Position numbers and translations under genes: made by a program
Shown here: one piece after another, positions 32,168 to 41,315 of the stretch
Layout: every line of letters begins with the position of its first letter
Numbering within the stretch: the first letter of the stretch is position 1
Source: Desulfovibrio mangrovi
Lineage (GTDB): Bacteria > Desulfobacterota > Desulfovibrionia > Desulfovibrionales > Desulfovibrionaceae
DNA: 64,000 nt
Assembly: GCF_026230175.1 (NCBI RefSeq)
Contig: NZ_CP104208.1
Coordinates: 1,984,001 to 2,048,000, forward strand
Direction: 5' to 3'
Notes under the pieces: model-generated
What the model was told of the DNA's origin: nothing
Databases searched by the model: none
What the model saw: only the letters and a program-made list of their open reading frames with translations

Positions 32168-32245
32168 TGGCGTCCCCAAGGGGATTTGAACCCCTGTCGC
32201 CTGCGTGAAAGGCAGGTGTCCTGGGCCAGGCTAGACGATGGGGAC
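32168..32245 (-). tRNA. tRNA-Glu (UUC)
   Basis: On the minus strand a full cloverleaf runs from GTCCCCATCG to GGGGACGCCA, with encoded CCA. The anticodon stem-loop is CCTGC-CTTTCAC-GCAGG, giving anticodon TTC. The T-arm contains GGTTCAAATCC. It closely resembles E. coli tRNA-Glu. It has its own promoter at 32285-32313 and its own terminator. Confidence 0.97.
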
Positions 32246-35432: not shown

Positions 35433-35456
35433 AAAAAAACCCCGGCATGACCGGGG
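35433..35456 (-). terminator. terminator of the ECF operon
   Basis: CCCCGG (35440-35445) / CCGGGG (35451-35456). On the minus strand this is followed by seven T. It lies 28 bp after the last gene of the operon. Confidence 0.88.
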
Positions 35457-35483
35457 CTTATATTCCGAATTCTCGGCGTTCAG

Positions 35484-36377
35484 CTACTTCTTGCCGCCGC
35501 CGTTTCCACCACCATTGCTACCGCCATTACCGCCGCCCTTGCCGTTACTACCTCCGCCTTTGCCGCCGCCCTTGCCGCCGCCCTTGCCACCGGAACCGGA
35601 GTTACCGGAGCTGGCGCTACGCGAGTCGGCCTTGCTCTGACCAAGACCTACGGACTTACCGTTACCGGAAGCGCCTTTCGCGCCCCCTGGCTCGGAACTG
35701 CCAGTCTTGGTATTGCGGCTGTTGCCGGAAACATTGGCTCCATAAACGCCTTTGGCTTTGGCCTGCGCGTCAACTCTGGCGTTCACCTTGGCCTTGGTCT
35801 GCGCCTTTGCGGTTCCGGCAGCCTTTGCGGAAGTCTTAGCAGCAGTCTGAGCCCGTTTGGTCAACCCCATACCCAGTACGCTGGGATGCAGACCCAACTC
35901 ATGCGCTATCTGGCCCCAGCCCATACCGGCGGCACGCATACCGGCGATGTCGGCCTCGGTAACGGACGTGGATTCGGCCATTACCGTATCAGCCTTTTCG
36001 TTGGCGGCATCCAGAGCTGCCTGAGCTGCGGCGATGGCAGTCTCGTCCTGCGCTTCTTCAGCTGCAGCCAGAGCGGCCTCGGCTTCCTGCACCTCGGTAA
36101 GGGCACCTTCAAGCGCTTCATTGGGCTGCGCAGCCGCAGCTGCAGCAAGATTGGCTGCACGGGCTGCCTGCGTGGGATTATTGAACGAGGGAGCTTCAGG
36201 CTCTGCTTCAGCCTGCTCTTCTCCCGCAACTTCGCCATCAGGTGCCGTGGCATCCGGAGCCTCTGTCACAGTATCAGTAGGCGTCGCCGGATCGTCAGCC
36301 GCAAACGAGGCACTGACAAACACAACCAACGCAACGATCAACACTGCAAAAGCGAGTGAAACTATTTTTTTTGCCAT
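35484..36377 (-). CDS. exported Ala-rich/Gly-Lys-rich protein with GWGQIA motif
   Basis: A 297-residue exported protein. ATG 36377 has GGAGAG upstream and opens a signal peptide ending at SASFAADD. Three zones follow: an acidic Ala/Glu-rich helix (to about residue 140), a conserved-looking motif GMGWGQIAHELGLHPSVLGMG (about 150-170), and a basic Ala/Lys zone that turns into a Gly/Ser/Asn/Lys repeat tail (GGGKGGGKGGG). The GWGQIA motif occurs in other small exported proteobacterial proteins of unknown role. It is the last gene of the ECF sigma operon and may be a cell-wall or surface component. Confidence 0.8.
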   Translation of the reverse strand: MAKKIVSLAFAVLIVALVVFVSASFAADDPATPTDTVTEAPDATAPDGEVAGEEQAEAEPEAPSFNNPTQAARAANLAAAAAAQPNEALEGALTEVQEAEAALAAAEEAQDETAIAAAQAALDAANEKADTVMAESTSVTEADIAGMRAAGMGWGQIAHELGLHPSVLGMGLTKRAQTAAKTSAKAAGTAKAQTKAKVNARVDAQAKAKGVYGANVSGNSRNTKTGSSEPGGAKGASGNGKSVGLGQSKADSRSASSGNSGSGGKGGGKGGGKGGGSNGKGGGNGGSNGGGNGGGKK

Positions 36378-36391
36378 GTCATCTCTCCAAA

Positions 36392-37363
36392 TCACTGCTT
36401 CTCCACCTCCGTGATGAACGAAACAGCTTCTCTGAGGTCCTTGGTCTTCCCACCTGCGGTCACCTTTTCAGGTACGCCGAACCAGCTGAGAGGCAATTGG
36501 GCCGGGGAAACACCCCCGGCATACCCAAGAATGTATTCCCTGATCCGCAAAGCCCGTTTTCTGGCCAGTTCGGGGGCGGCATCCACATACGTCACAATGT
36601 GCACCTTCAACGTCTTCGAATTGCCGAGCATGGCGCCCAACAATTGAAGAGAGGGCTTCGCGTCGTTCTTCAGCTCATCGGTACCGGGTTCGAATTGTAC
36701 AGCTTCGAAACTTACCCGTCGTTTACCGATAAGAAAATTACGCCACGAGAAATCGCCCAAGGCATTCAAACTATCAACAGCCCGCAGTGCAAGCGCACCA
36801 TCGGGGTAATACTTCAAATATGTCAGCCACGCCTTCCGCTCTTCCTCGAACCGTTTGAGGCCGTGCAGTGCACGAGGACGGTTATAGAGGGCATCGGGAT
36901 CATAGCTGTCCCGCCCGAGAACCTTGTCATATGCAGCCAGCGCCCCGTTCCAGTCCTTCCTGTCCAGCAGGTTGTGTCCCATGTACAGGCGGGCGTAGAG
37001 GTTCATCGGGTTCAGGGCCAGAGCCTTTTCATACGAGCGGAGTTCCTCGTCGTATTCCATGAGCGCCCAGTGTGCGATACCCTTCCAGAAAAGATAGGTA
37101 TCGTTCCCCGGCTCCAGCTCGACCGCTTTGGTAATGTAAGGCAGCGCCTGCTCGGGCTTGTCATCGGCCAGATACAGACGGGCCATGTAATACCGGGCTT
37201 CAGCATTTTCAGGATCCTCTGCCAGTATGGCAGAAAAGTCCTGAACACCTTCATTATATTTCTTCGTATTGAGATAATATGGACCCTTCACAACCGTACA
37301 TCCAGTCACAAAACCCACTGCCAGCATTAATAAAAGAAACGCCGGCATGACTGATTTTCTCAT
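36392..37363 (-). CDS. TPR lipoprotein with OmpA-like C-terminal domain
   Basis: A 323-residue lipoprotein with lipobox FVTGC at residues 18-22. Residues about 30-200 form four or so tetratricopeptide repeats (AILAEDPENAEARYYMARLY, AVELEPGNDTYLFWKGIAHW, ALALNPMNLYARLYMGHNLL). The C-terminal part has the OmpA/MotB peptidoglycan-binding pattern: VQFEPGTDELKNDAKPSL, then IVTYVDAAPELARKRALRIR. It probably links the outer membrane to the wall. AGAGG precedes the ATG. Fourth gene of the ECF operon, 14 bp before the Gly-rich gene. Confidence 0.86.
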   Translation of the reverse strand: MRKSVMPAFLLLMLAVGFVTGCTVVKGPYYLNTKKYNEGVQDFSAILAEDPENAEARYYMARLYLADDKPEQALPYITKAVELEPGNDTYLFWKGIAHWALMEYDEELRSYEKALALNPMNLYARLYMGHNLLDRKDWNGALAAYDKVLGRDSYDPDALYNRPRALHGLKRFEEERKAWLTYLKYYPDGALALRAVDSLNALGDFSWRNFLIGKRRVSFEAVQFEPGTDELKNDAKPSLQLLGAMLGNSKTLKVHIVTYVDAAPELARKRALRIREYILGYAGGVSPAQLPLSWFGVPEKVTAGGKTKDLREAVSFITEVEKQ

Positions 37364-37453
37364 CGGAACCTCTCAGATACAATTATTTGATAAGGTTCTT
37401 ACAGTGCATTACGTAAGAACAAGATTCAAAGTCACATCATTTTACAAATTCAT

Positions 37454-38251
37454 TTATTGCCGAACATGTCCCGAGCCGCCAGCACCTTGCAGCGTATCGC
37501 GCGAGGTCAGCCCAAGGGCGTCATACAGATCCTGTAACGGTGCACCGTTACGCAACATGGATTCCGCCTGAGCCATCAGGGAGTCGTCTTCAATTCCCTG
37601 ACGACGGGCAAGTGCGACAAGCCGATTGAATCCTCGCCACCGCGGCATAAGCCCTTCATGAGCGAGTCCGGCGGAAACAAACGAATCCACGCCCGCTTCA
37701 CCGATACCGTCCTTGCGCAGCTGCGCGGCAAGCCTCACGGCCGCCGCCAGATCGTCAGCCGACGACGAGACATGGTCGCGAATCAAGGCTGCGACAACAT
37801 CGAAGGGCAATCCCTGCTGCATCGAAGAGCCAATAATAACGACCGCATGATCACCGGCATTCCTGACTCCGGCATTTCGCAACAGATCTCCTGCGCGCTG
37901 CATGTCATCCTGCAATGCTACGAGCACCGGCAGAATTCTGGCGGCAGAAATTCGCTTTCCCATCCCCTCTTCCACCTTCTCCTCAAGAGGGTAGAGAGGA
38001 ACGTTTTTCTCACAGGCATGCTGCAGAGAATCCAACAGGGAAAAGGCATCTTCCCCGGCCAACCTTCCTTCAACGGAGTCAGCCAGAATCCGGTCTACAA
38101 GCGAAGGCGATATCCCGCATTGGCGAGCCGAAGCAGCAGCGCTCGCCAGATCACCCTGCTCTGCGACAGCCGTGCACGGCAACCCAAGGGCCACCGCAGA
38201 TGCCAGCAAGAGTCCCAGCAACGGCATCAAGAAACCGGACTTAAATCTCAC
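37454..38251 (-). CDS. exported helical protein of the ECF operon, unknown function
   Basis: A 265-residue protein. The GTG at 38251 (GGGGAAGAG upstream) opens a signal peptide (RFKSGFLMPLLGLLLASAVA). A TTG five codons earlier is the alternative. The mature part is helical, with several 30-residue units that each begin after a Gly-x-Pro or Gly-Ile (GISPSLVDRILADS, GLPFDVVAALIRDH, GIGEAGVDSFVSAG, GIEDDSLMAQAES). It overlaps the preceding anti-sigma-like gene by 11 nt. No family is recognised. It is probably periplasmic. Confidence 0.78.
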   Translation of the reverse strand: MRFKSGFLMPLLGLLLASAVALGLPCTAVAEQGDLASAAASARQCGISPSLVDRILADSVEGRLAGEDAFSLLDSLQHACEKNVPLYPLEEKVEEGMGKRISAARILPVLVALQDDMQRAGDLLRNAGVRNAGDHAVVIIGSSMQQGLPFDVVAALIRDHVSSSADDLAAAVRLAAQLRKDGIGEAGVDSFVSAGLAHEGLMPRWRGFNRLVALARRQGIEDDSLMAQAESMLRNGAPLQDLYDALGLTSRDTLQGAGGSGHVRQ

Positions 38252-38867
38252 GGGTCTCTTCCCCAATGTACAGCACAGAGTTCCTGCTGCCGAAGCTGTC
38301 CTCGCGGAACAGGCTCACCCCCGGATCGGGAATAGTCATATGCCCATCCACAAGAAAGACATATTCATGTTCCCCGCGCGGCAAAACGGCTTCCAGCACC
38401 CACGCCTTCGAGCCATCATCATAACGCATGACAAAGCTTCCTTCCTGCCACTGGTTGAACGTACCTATTACCGCCACCGATCGCATGCGTTTCTGTCCGT
38501 CGGCCAGAACAAAACGCACCGGCACACCGTCATACTCCCGGAGAGAGGCTGGCGTGGCTTTGGCAGAATACAATATCGAGGTCCCCGGAGTCATCGGCGC
38601 ACCAGCATCACGCAGCATCACATTCACCGATACAACGACCACTGCGGCTAAAGCCAAAGCACAAAGACCGGTTGCAGGTCTGAAGCTCAAGGTTATCGGC
38701 TGACGAAAGGTGCGCAGCATTCTTTGCCACACAGAAGGCTGCTTGGGTTGGATTCTGGACAGTATGTTCGGCATGAGCTCCGGCGGGGCGCTGATATCCT
38801 CATAGTCCCGAATAGCGTCACGCAGCACAGGTACGCGTTCCTTAGTACCGTTTTCAGGAGTGTGCAT
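38241..38867 (-). CDS. one-TM protein with glycogen-binding (CBM48/AMPK-like) domain, putative anti-sigma factor
   Basis: A 208-residue protein. The cytoplasmic N-terminus is about 70 residues (AIRDYEDISAPPELMPNILS). One TM follows (LCALALAAVVVVSVNVM). The periplasmic part ends in an early-set/CBM48 domain: VAVIGTFNQWQEGSFVM, then WVLEAVLPRGEHEYVFLVDG. ATG 38867 overlaps the sigma-factor stop as TGATG, with GGAGG 5-6 nt upstream. This gene order is typical of an anti-sigma factor, but I see no zinc-binding ZAS motif. The CBM-like domain suggests sensing of a glycan or wall fragment; that is inference. Confidence 0.82.
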   Translation of the reverse strand: MHTPENGTKERVPVLRDAIRDYEDISAPPELMPNILSRIQPKQPSVWQRMLRTFRQPITLSFRPATGLCALALAAVVVVSVNVMLRDAGAPMTPGTSILYSAKATPASLREYDGVPVRFVLADGQKRMRSVAVIGTFNQWQEGSFVMRYDDGSKAWVLEAVLPRGEHEYVFLVDGHMTIPDPGVSLFREDSFGSRNSVLYIGEETREI

Positions 38868-39424
38868 CACTCACCTCCAATCAGGTCACGCAGGAGTTCG
38901 AGCCCCCGCTTGATACGCATCTTTGCCGCGCTCAGACCGATATCCAGAGCGCGGGCCACCTCGGCAAGTTCCAACTCTTCGCGGTAGCGTAATATTAATG
39001 CCTCTCTGTAGAGAAGCGGCAACTGTTCCAGCGCTGCGAACGCCCTGTCCCTGTCGAGCCTGACTTCTGATGACGGCTCCTCAAGGACGGGAATGACTGA
39101 ATCAATATCCACATGCACCACATTCAATCTGGCCTGCTTGCGGTAGTAATCCCTTACGATATTAAGCGCCACGGCATGCAGCCAAGGATAAAACGGGCGA
39201 TTCGGCGAGTACTGTTCCAGCTTTTCATATGCCTGCACAAAGGCATCCTGCGTCAGGTCTGCGGCCAGATGAGGGGAGCGCACCGCGCGAAAGACCATAG
39301 CATAAAGACGTTGCTGATACCGAAGTACGAGCAACGAAAATGCGTCAACATCACCGTCCAGCACATCACGGACGATTTTCGCATCATTGGAAGCACCTTG
39401 CTGGGTGCGGGCAGTTTGTCGCAT
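38867..39424 (-). CDS. RNA polymerase sigma factor, ECF (sigma-70 family)
   Basis: A 185-residue ECF sigma factor. Region 2: AFSLLVLRYQQRLYAMVFRA, then DLTQDAFVQAYEKL and YPWLHAVALNIVRDYYRK. Region 4: ALEQLPLLYREALILRYREE, then LELAEVARALDIGLSAAKMRIKR. The ATG at 39424 has no good ribosome site. A strong AAGGAGG (39455-39449) sits 6 nt before an in-frame CTG at 39442, which could be the true start and would add six residues. It heads an operon with a putative anti-sigma gene and three exported proteins. Confidence 0.93.
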   Translation of the reverse strand: MRQTARTQQGASNDAKIVRDVLDGDVDAFSLLVLRYQQRLYAMVFRAVRSPHLAADLTQDAFVQAYEKLEQYSPNRPFYPWLHAVALNIVRDYYRKQARLNVVHVDIDSVIPVLEEPSSEVRLDRDRAFAALEQLPLLYREALILRYREELELAEVARALDIGLSAAKMRIKRGLELLRDLIGGE

Positions 39425-39492
39425 GCGAAGAATCCGAAACAGTATGTACCTCCTTATACGACATACGAGAGCCTCAGGTCACATGACCATAA

Positions 39493-39523
39493 CAAAAAAA
39501 AGAAGCCCGCAAAAGCGGGCTTC
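39493..39523 (-). terminator. terminator after the DUF4139 gene
   Basis: GAAGCCCGC (39502-39510) / GCGGGCTTC (39515-39523). On the minus strand it is followed by a long T run. Only about 40 bp remain between it and the Shine-Dalgarno of the sigma gene. Confidence 0.92.
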
Positions 39524-39545: not shown

Positions 39546-41114
39546 CTAACGTCCCCTGCCGAAATCGACATCCATATCCTTGGGTGCAGTCACAGTCACG
39601 GCATGCCTGATGACCGATTCTCCGCCTGCGGGCAGCTCCAGCTTCCACACAAGCTTGTGTTCCTCGTCCTTTTCAGGGCGTGGTGCGGACTCCATTTCAA
39701 TTCGAATATCCGAATGACCGGATTGCGGCTCAGGCTCTTCAACCGTCAGCACCACAGGATGCTTTCGGTCGTTTTTCAAGGCAATCTCCCAAGCCCAGAC
39801 CATGGTCTGTTTGCGGCCTATGATGCCCTTGTTGCCGGACTGCTTCTCAAGAAGACGCATGGTGGCGGAAACCAGCGGGTCAGCGCCGAAGAAAAGGTCC
39901 GCTTCGGTACCGGACAACCTGAAGCTGCGCTTACCGATAAGCGCCCCATCCACAAGGAACATTGCCATGCCTTGCGGCAGTTCCCTCGGGGCAGGCAGAA
40001 CGACCTGTGCGGTCAGGTATGCCTTACTGTCGCCCGAAGGACGGGCCGTGTAGTTGAAGTCGGTTCGCCAGTATTCCGCCTGCACGGGCAGACTGATACG
40101 CCTGCCGGCAGGCACCGTGCGACGCCCAAGCTCCCATACGGCATAACTTCCACGCTCCACCTTGCGGGGAGCCGGTGCTGCGGCAACGGATTTCATCATT
40201 TCCGGTGCAGCCTCCGCCATCATGGGAGCCCTGCCGCCCACAGCACTGTCATACATGACCACCTGACGTTCTTCCACCAACCAGTCGGGCAGTCCGGGCG
40301 GCACGAGCGCGACAAAACGCTCCACCGTGGCGAGGGCTATATTGGCATCCTTCCAATCCAGGCCGGAAGCCTGTTCTATTTCCGCAGTAAAGGTGAAGGC
40401 CACCTTGCCCTGACCGGGCAGAGCCTCAAAACGATACAGAGGCTGCCAGTTGCAGTTGCCGAGCACATAGCTGTAGCGCACTTCCATTTGCGCAGGCGCA
40501 TTGACGAATGCGGCCTGCACGCGCCAGACCTGCCTATCACCGCCTACGGCACGTTTAATGGCGTCTTCAAGTTCGGCAACTTCAGCCTCCAACGCCGTAC
40601 GGCGCTCCTCCACGTCAAACCGGCTGCGATGCAGCCCCGCAAGGTGTTTGGACATGGCAGCATCAAGTCGCTCCATCTCAGCGGCAGACGAGCCGTCAGC
40701 AGGGGTATCGCTCCACAGCGAGATACGGGAGTCTATGGCTCCCAGCTCACCGGAAACCACGGCAAGCTCCCGTCGCTTGGCCAGCAGTTCCTTGCGCATT
40801 GTTTCAACGACTCCCTGACCCACGGCAGGAACACGGTCCAGACGTACATCCACAAGAGTTCCGGACTTGGCTGCAATACGCAGCGTCTCGGGATCGGCAT
40901 AGGCCGGCAGAGTTACCAGAACCCCGCGCTGTCCGTCCGGCAGAATCTCCTGTGAAAGTACCTCAGTGCATTCAAGCAAGGCACGTCCCGGAAACAGCGT
41001 TACGGAATCAGGGGCAACAGGCTTCTCCGCGGCAAAGACAGGCGATGCGAACACCACCAGCACAGCCAGCAACGCAAGAAAATGCCCGCCACAAGCATAC
41101 GAGTATCGTTTCAT
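39546..41114 (-). CDS. DUF4139-domain protein (mucoidy-inhibitor MuiA family)
   Basis: A 522-residue exported protein. ATG 41114 has AAAGGAG upstream and opens a signal peptide ending at SPVFAAEK. A coiled-coil zone lies at about residues 95-185 (KELLAKRRELAVVSGELGAI). A beta-rich C-terminal half follows (WQPLYRFEALPGQGKVAF, ASGLDWKDANIALATVERF, FFGADPLVSATMRLLEKQSG). This layout is the DUF4140/DUF4139 family of unknown function, linked in some bacteria to mucoidy. It lies directly upstream of the ECF operon on the same strand and ends in its own terminator. Confidence 0.87.
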   Translation of the reverse strand: MKRYSYACGGHFLALLAVLVVFASPVFAAEKPVAPDSVTLFPGRALLECTEVLSQEILPDGQRGVLVTLPAYADPETLRIAAKSGTLVDVRLDRVPAVGQGVVETMRKELLAKRRELAVVSGELGAIDSRISLWSDTPADGSSAAEMERLDAAMSKHLAGLHRSRFDVEERRTALEAEVAELEDAIKRAVGGDRQVWRVQAAFVNAPAQMEVRYSYVLGNCNWQPLYRFEALPGQGKVAFTFTAEIEQASGLDWKDANIALATVERFVALVPPGLPDWLVEERQVVMYDSAVGGRAPMMAEAAPEMMKSVAAAPAPRKVERGSYAVWELGRRTVPAGRRISLPVQAEYWRTDFNYTARPSGDSKAYLTAQVVLPAPRELPQGMAMFLVDGALIGKRSFRLSGTEADLFFGADPLVSATMRLLEKQSGNKGIIGRKQTMVWAWEIALKNDRKHPVVLTVEEPEPQSGHSDIRIEMESAPRPEKDEEHKLVWKLELPAGGESVIRHAVTVTAPKDMDVDFGRGR

Positions 41115-41315
41115 GAAAACTCCTTTATTCGCTGAATGACGAGACACCCTACCATATACAGAGCGAGCATTGCCAGCGCGGATGAACCCGGAAACACAGC
41201 CAGAGCACACTATTTTGTCCAAGCATTGCAATACCGGAAGACAGCGACGAAAGTCCGCCCCCCTCTCACTCCCAAAACCGTTAGCCGTTATCAGCCGCGC
41301 CCCCTCGGCTCACGA

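Follow-up and report, generated by a model that had tools for sequence, protein, structure and literature searches.

The described systems closest to the one reported here are SigW-RsiW of Bacillus subtilis, CnrH-CnrY of Cupriavidus metallidurans and RpoE-RseA-RseB of Escherichia coli. The RpoE system is autoregulated, and CnrY is part of the metal-sensing CnrYXH system. SigW and RsiW (structures 5wuq and 5wur) are an extracytoplasmic function (ECF) sigma factor and an anti-sigma factor with one transmembrane segment and a zinc bundle; helix 3, a linker and helix 4 of RsiW occupy a hydrophobic groove in SigW, and regulated proteolysis eliminates RsiW (excerpt of PMC5358783). The same excerpt describes in CnrY, of the class II pair CnrH-CnrY, a short zinc-less motif equivalent to just helices 3-4 of RsiW. 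In RpoE-RseA-RseB, an envelope-stress ECF sigma factor is combined with a single-span anti-sigma factor and with a periplasmic partner from the same operon (excerpt of PMC8103513). Class I anti-sigma domains (ASDI) are four-helix cytoplasmic domains with a mean length of about 100 amino acids, in which helix 4 makes contact with region 2 of sigma and of which about 44% have no zinc motif (excerpt of PMC7406223). In this study we analysed a stretch of 64,000 nucleotides from Desulfovibrio mangrovi (contig NZ_CP104208.1, positions 1,984,001 to 2,048,000; hereafter the window), in which five compact genes on the minus strand encode, in this order, an ECF sigma factor, a 208-residue protein with one transmembrane helix, a helical repeat protein (hel), a tetratricopeptide repeat (TPR) lipoprotein and a Gly/Lys-rich protein (gly). 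We conclude, with a probability of about 0.82, that they form an autoregulated switch of an ECF sigma factor and a membrane anti-sigma factor governing a small envelope regulon. Gene order, domains, homology and the promoter motif with its sites were computed, and from these we infer sigma binding, promoter activity, the ligand, proteolysis and the roles of the products.

The predicted pair resembles SigW-RsiW in its topology, and the helix 3-linker-helix 4 segment of RsiW matches the cytoplasmic tails of the family, but the window protein has no zinc bundle and carries an outer domain of the CBM48 type. Its short zinc-less tail is like that of CnrY, an equivalence to RsiW helices 3-4 that is taken from the excerpt of PMC5358783, CnrY itself lying outside our alignments. 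Unlike CnrY, however, the window protein has a CBM48 domain outside the membrane, and its family includes zinc-type members too. Both the sensor domain and the regulon differ from those of RpoE-RseA-RseB, and none of the five genes has an RseB match in Pfam. The fold, the FNxW Trp and the C-terminal Asn of the outer domain are shared with the CBM48 of AMPK beta (1z0m, 4yef), whereas the second sugar Trp is missing and the domain sits on a predicted anti-sigma factor, not on an enzyme or kinase. No paper on this system turned up in the literature, searched at listing level, and an existing ECF group name is possible. The system is real and widespread and its logic is ordinary; what is new is the sensor domain, the minimal tail and the regulon. 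We tentatively suggest, at somewhat less than even odds, that the relatives constitute a widespread, apparently undescribed anti-sigma family, in which CBM48 serves as the periplasmic sensor, the members range from a zinc bundle to a CnrY-like two-helix clamp, and the regulon comprises Gly-rich and helical exported surface-coat proteins, with the Gly-rich tail either on hel or on a separate gly.

The sigma factor and its predicted anti-sigma factor

Sigma-70 regions 2 and 4 are the only domains of the sigma protein, which places it among the ECF factors: Sigma70_r2 (9.9e-16) and Sigma70_r4_2 (4e-10) are both over the Pfam cut-off, and TIGR02937 scores 79.6 bits against a cut-off of 42.9. The sigma stop codon and the ATG of the membrane protein gene share one base (TGATG at 38869-38865, with GGAGG just upstream); GTG 38870 is merely the mechanical first start of the latter gene. 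An initial annotation of this DNA had given the five genes, their positions and this overlap, all of which were found again in the open reading frames and the sequence. It had also proposed that the membrane protein is an anti-sigma factor. We consider this very probable, because homology, gene order and a domain swap all speak strongly for the role.

As to homology, the initial annotation saw no ZAS zinc motif, and this is correct for the window protein, in which neither Pfam (zf-HC2) nor a motif search (H-x3-C-x2-C) found one. It does not extend to the relatives, since 14 of them (L118-L129, L131, L135) combine H-x3-C-x2-C, a PPxL helix, a transmembrane helix and a CBM in one protein. The zf-HC2 family scores 28.7 bits, over its cut-off, in L118 and just under it in L131, and it matches 8 of 28 N-termini; in the short stretches examined, a sigma gene is seen in 11 of the 14 ZAS loci. 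The zinc-less tails resemble RsiW helices 3-4. A profile of 24 of these tails found RsiW (5wuq, residues 46-76) as the sole PDB sequence at E of 5 or less, with E 0.0045; a full-length profile reached RsiW at E 0.069 and a profile including the ZAS rows at 1.8e-5. The modelled tail, with about 62 residues and three short helices before the membrane, is thus smaller than the four-helix class I domain of about 100 residues, and its match to RsiW helices 3-4 and missing zinc bundle assign it to the minimal, CnrY-like type. The window tail by itself has no Pfam anti-sigma match.

The domain swap is seen in two loci (L152, L153), where the same tail and transmembrane helix are fused to a TPR/OmpA-like domain; neither a CBM nor hel is labelled there. 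Their sigma factors fall inside the 49-row window-type clade (support 99/97), and the ZAS-linked sigma factors form a separate group (98/94). Because the tree has a midpoint root and the program gives a warning on long branches, most of all L152, it does not tell a loss of the zinc bundle from a gain. The TPR form would arise most simply by a deletion that fused the tail with the following gene. In another locus (L078) the sigma and anti-sigma genes lie in one frame, broken by stops; a joint alignment of the two proteins by way of this locus was dropped because MAFFT put the anti-sigma tails onto the sigma region.

Gene order was compared in longer stretches around matches to the membrane protein (17 of 59 relatives, G032 and G033 in the CBM part only) and to hel (17 of 99 family members, own genome included), together with 40 named loci. 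After removal of the duplicates L070, L081 and L086, these gave 63 non-redundant loci with the full-length membrane protein; the search made no demand for a sigma gene, and since some contigs end early, the gene absences are upper bounds. An ECF sigma gene adjoins the anti-sigma gene in 62 loci by script and in the 63rd (L051, with an overlong reading-frame call) by coordinates. The initial annotation had made its reading depend on homologues of the five genes being kept together, and all five are together in 29 of the 63 loci; hel, the TPR gene and gly are likewise present in L051. In a further 14 loci the pair is accompanied by hel but by neither a TPR nor a gly gene, and it stands alone in L087 and in 17 of the 18 Bipolaricaulota-type loci, with L097 adding hel. 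The gene hel accompanies the anti-sigma gene in 44 loci by script (45 with L051), 29 of which also have TPR and gly. The five-gene order is more than chance, as it recurs in dozens of genomes. It is very improbable, in our view, that the membrane protein is instead an activator, or an unrelated envelope protein whose gene just happens to lie in the operon. The missing Pfam match of the window tail would fit such a role, but the ZAS-bearing relatives, the RsiW match, the overlapping genes and a domain swap that keeps only tail and transmembrane helix all argue for an anti-sigma factor.

Promoter motif and putative regulon

The motif TGTGACC-N16-CGTATA (P1) was read from the sequences upstream of the sigma genes, so that a genome search served as an independent test. 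Among 68 upstream regions (64 without duplicates), 41 score at least 11/13, always with a spacer of 16, while the maximum in 340 shuffles is 10. At the same threshold the motif precedes 38 of 44 non-redundant sigma genes of the Desulfobacterota type. Two of the remaining loci (L048, L082) have gly before sigma, and there the motif stands before gly (12/13 and 11/13). A TGTATAT-like box was noticed by eye upstream in some Bipolaricaulota-type loci.

The exact 11-base pattern was searched in 14 of the 25 operon-bearing genomes, where it has 27 matches, compared with 11 for a reversed-pattern control; one genome (G102) has none. By our own sorting from the hits and locus coordinates, nine matches lie before sigma, six in the gap between hel and the TPR gene, three before gly paralogues (L141 in the own genome, at G000:C1:3579140, L143 in G006, L148 in G121), three before a lipoprotein of about 51 amino acids (L142, at G000:C1:3869469, L144 and L147 in the same genomes) and six elsewhere. 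The own genome contains four exact copies of GTGAC-N17-CGTATA, namely at P1, before the gly paralogue, before the small lipoprotein and once within a gene. In genomes without the operon, none of 13 gly- or lipoprotein-like matches scores 10 or more, nor does any of the 11 usable ones that remain after two poor controls were dropped (the G003 lipoprotein, where a contig end cuts the stretch, and G024, which is not a gly-type protein). The pattern also lies 52 and 124 bases before two other genes of G121 (L145, L146), a response-regulator-like gene and one for a 161-residue exported-looking protein, which are possibly further targets or chance sites.

A second candidate (P2), between hel and the TPR gene, scores 13/13 at the same place in G006 (L040), and the exact pattern occupies this place in 6 of the 14 genomes. 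Among the 30 non-redundant loci in which a TPR or gly gene follows, P2 scores 12-13 in nine (L040, L050, L055, L056, L058, L059, L075, L078, L091); forms with a spacer of 15 or 17 were seen by eye in L051, L057, L060 and L085, and L045 was added by the exact-pattern genome search. From P1, P2 and the sites elsewhere in the genome, the sigma factor is probably autoregulated and governs a small envelope regulon, which also favours the proposal of the initial annotation that its release leads to the production of envelope proteins.

The outer domain as a possible sensor

The initial annotation had ascribed a CBM48-type outer domain to the membrane protein, and this is borne out. AMPK1_CBM matches at 1.7e-9 (38.2 bits, cut-off 26.8), with CBM_48 at 17.7 bits below its cut-off of 22.4. 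The structural model (mean pLDDT, predicted local distance difference test, 80.7; predicted template-modelling score, pTM, 0.49) places the tail helices first, followed by a transmembrane helix at residues 64-88 that hydropathy also indicates, a linker modelled with low confidence (92-109) and, at 114-201, a beta sandwich. In Foldseek the best matches of the model are AMPK beta subunits (6c9g, E 1.1e-7; 1z0m_B, E 1.7e-7, with a template-modelling score of 0.87 by the length of 1z0m_B), so that the domain has the early-set beta sandwich of CBM48.

This clear fold suggested that the domain is a true glycan sensor, in which a periplasmic alpha-glucan or other oligosaccharide would bind and free the sigma factor. 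All of 22 window-type rows keep the first sugar Trp (FNxW) and the FGxxN Asn, and the second of the two stacking Trp residues, which we take to form the AMPK-type sugar site, is present in 18/18 Bipolaricaulota-type and 2/2 Kiritimatiellota anti-sigma factors. However, this second Trp is absent from 43/43 window-type anti-sigma factors, the window protein included, and in the alignments the AMPK Lys after Tyr is mostly replaced by V, A or M; moreover, a TPR/OmpA-like domain can replace the sensor domain altogether. ZAS-type rows are mixed for the second Trp. Because of the missing Trp, it is doubtful that the window protein binds glucan directly, the sensing of glycan or wall fragments that the initial annotation had proposed is weakened, and we regard a glycan sensor as unlikely.

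The degenerate sugar site is one argument for a second possibility, to which we give nearly an even chance: the CBM-fold domain may be a protein-protein module that docks hel or the TPR lipoprotein, so that envelope proteins would carry the signal, by analogy with RseA docking RseB. The frequent occurrence of hel together with the anti-sigma gene and the TPR/OmpA domain found in place of the CBM in two genomes would fit such a module. On the other hand, 17 of the 18 Bipolaricaulota-type loci have sigma and anti-sigma genes with no hel in the stretch (some contigs end early), and nothing more than a deletion between adjacent genes may lie behind the TPR join.

The CBM is present twice in some operons. 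In L052 (7658-8080), L062 (9127-9495), L073 (6957-7319) and L080 (6760-7185), another small AMPK1_CBM protein, with an N-terminal hydrophobic segment (transmembrane or lipoprotein signal), is encoded directly upstream of sigma; in longer reading-frame calls, a further CBM gene also lies upstream of sigma in L061, L079 and L089. Among ten upstream copies, the second Trp is kept in five (L079, L080, L089, L111, L114) and lost in the other five (L052, L061, L062, L073, L112). A separate AMPK1_CBM protein of 101 residues without a transmembrane segment is encoded elsewhere in the own genome (L067, 8775-9080; G000:C1:1888834), with similar ones in L054, L064 and L068. A divergent branch (L130, L132, L133, L134) has sigma, a CBM protein that lacks zinc ligands and one more small gene of CBM-like type; three of the four also have a labelled hel, which ends in a Gly/Ser-rich tail in L130 and L132.

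Exported proteins

Three exported proteins had been predicted to follow, a helical repeat protein, a TPR lipoprotein and a Gly/Lys-rich protein, and signal peptides, a lipobox and a helical model agree with this. The hel protein has a signal peptide by eye and an all-helical model (pLDDT 87.5, pTM 0.79) with the form of an alpha solenoid. Foldseek gave nothing under E 0.001 for it (best 0.043), VIA Z scores were all below 8 and mostly with designed repeats, and a sequence profile against the PDB gave nothing under E 0.06; a missing PDB match does not establish a new fold.

In the second protein, TPR families are far over the cut-off. The OmpA-like domain of the initial annotation stays just under the cut-off in the window (25.4 against 27.2 bits) but exceeds it in 4 of the 8 relatives tested; its RA motif is mostly kept, and the Asp that we take to be part of the OmpA peptidoglycan site is not conserved.

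The gly protein has a signal peptide by eye, and its last 70 residues contain 45% Gly and 12% Lys. Across 19 rows, 13 have a GMGWGxIA-type motif by a strict pattern, and the last 70 residues are 31-61% Gly. Where the gly gene is missing, hel itself tends to carry a Gly-rich tail: this is so in 10 of 14 hel loci without gly (L053 just at the 30% threshold) and in none of 30 with gly (Fisher p 4e-7 over 44 hel loci, which are not independent where the sequences are related), which suggests that the operon output needs the tail. Weak helix-turn-helix-like Pfam scores of hel and gly, which would have made them DNA-binding proteins, were set aside, as both have signal peptides.

Proposed switch

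We propose that at rest the short cytoplasmic tail of the 208-residue protein, like helices 3-4 of RsiW, would clamp the sigma factor at the inner membrane. The CBM48-type domain would feel a periplasmic change by binding a ligand, either a glycan or an envelope protein, upon which the anti-sigma protein would be cut or reshaped and the sigma factor set free. Regulated proteolysis is the usual route for anti-sigma factors of this topology. Free sigma factor would then transcribe its own operon from P1, with P2 adding to the output of the TPR-lipoprotein and Gly-rich genes, and would switch on the Gly-rich paralogue and the 51-residue lipoprotein elsewhere in the genome. The helical solenoid, the TPR/OmpA-like lipoprotein and the Gly-rich proteins probably strengthen the envelope or cover it, with a surface layer or wall repair as the conjectured output, and these products may feed back on the sensor.

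Several observations weigh against this switch. Besides the window tail with no Pfam match, hel sits between sigma and anti-sigma in five ZAS loci (L118, L120, L121, L123, L128), and no sigma gene is seen in the short stretch of 3 of the 14. P1 is missing from 6 of the 44 Desulfobacterota-type regions (L041, L048, L058, L071 with an N run, L082 and the second sigma of L065), and at 11/13 or more from 18/18 Bipolaricaulota-type and 2/2 Kiritimatiellota regions. Of the four exact sites of the own genome, one lies inside a gene, and with up to one mismatch that genome shows no excess (33 sites against 39 in the control). Sites away from the operon are clear in only three genomes; gly- and lipoprotein-type genes of the operon-bearing G007, G009 and G016 have no motif, and that of G013 scores 10/13. 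P2 scores low in the window and is not seen in 15 of the 30 loci, including the six of the Halodesulfovibrio type. A protease of the RseP type is present, yet this says little because the family was matched in 14/14 control genomes too.

In our judgement, little of the envelope-stress signalling of sulfate reducers and other anaerobes has been mapped, and for these organisms the locus offers a concrete sigma/anti-sigma pair, a promoter sequence and a short target list. The relatives, with zinc-type and minimal domains and with two sensor domains on one tail, are a natural series on how an anti-sigma clamp changes and a sensor is swapped, and exported proteins of unassigned role become testable as a single regulon.

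Organization of the locus

The coordinates in Table 1 are window positions. The initial annotation let the operon run from 35484 to 39442. Its gene positions stand, but its end at 39442 is less secure: ATG 39424 is at least as likely a start for sigma, because CTG 39442 falls almost on the predicted transcription start, and with the predicted promoter and terminator the five-gene unit runs from 39483 to 35440. The overlap of hel with the membrane protein gene is 26 bases from the TTG start and 11 from the GTG start.

Table 1. Features of the five-gene unit and its borders.
Feature	Position	Strand	Remarks
Terminator-like hairpin, then T run	39502..39523	-	Sequence reading, no terminator scan; closes the MuiA-type (DUF4139) gene and separates the operon from it
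P1, predicted sigma-gene promoter, TGTGACC-N16-CGTATA	39455..39483	-	13/13 in window
ECF sigma gene, 185 amino acids from ATG	38867..39424	-	Start uncertain, CTG 39442 possible
Anti-sigma candidate, 208 amino acids: cytoplasmic tail, one transmembrane helix, outer CBM48/AMPK-type beta sandwich	38241..38867	-	
Cytoplasmic tail, residues ~1-62, minimal anti-sigma domain, helix 3 - APP linker - helix 4 type	38682..38867	-	
Transmembrane helix, residues 64-88	38604..38678	-	Hydropathy and model
Outer CBM48/early-set domain, residues 114-204	38256..38528	-	AMPK1_CBM, Foldseek
hel, exported all-alpha repeat protein, KIEEGLAK-type conserved motif	37454..38266	-	Start TTG 38266 or, more likely, GTG 38251
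P2, weaker internal promoter candidate, TGTGACT-N16-CGTAAT, before TPR gene	37408..37436	-	10/13 in window
TPR lipoprotein, lipobox VTGC, divergent C-terminal OmpA-like domain	36392..37363	-	Lipobox by eye
gly, exported, MRAAGMGWGQIAHELGLHPS motif and Gly/Lys-rich tail	35484..36377	-	ATG 36377; GTG 36395 possible
Terminator-like hairpin, then T run, operon end	35440..35457	-	Sequence reading, no terminator scan

A MuiA-type protein (DUF4139/DUF4140) is encoded directly upstream of the operon, at 39546-41231. Among the stretches compared, the MuiA, FAD and membrane-protein neighbours are shared only with the closest relative (L040), and the unit is therefore taken to be the five genes. A tRNA-Glu (ttc) gene lies close to the operon on the minus strand, at 32168-32245.

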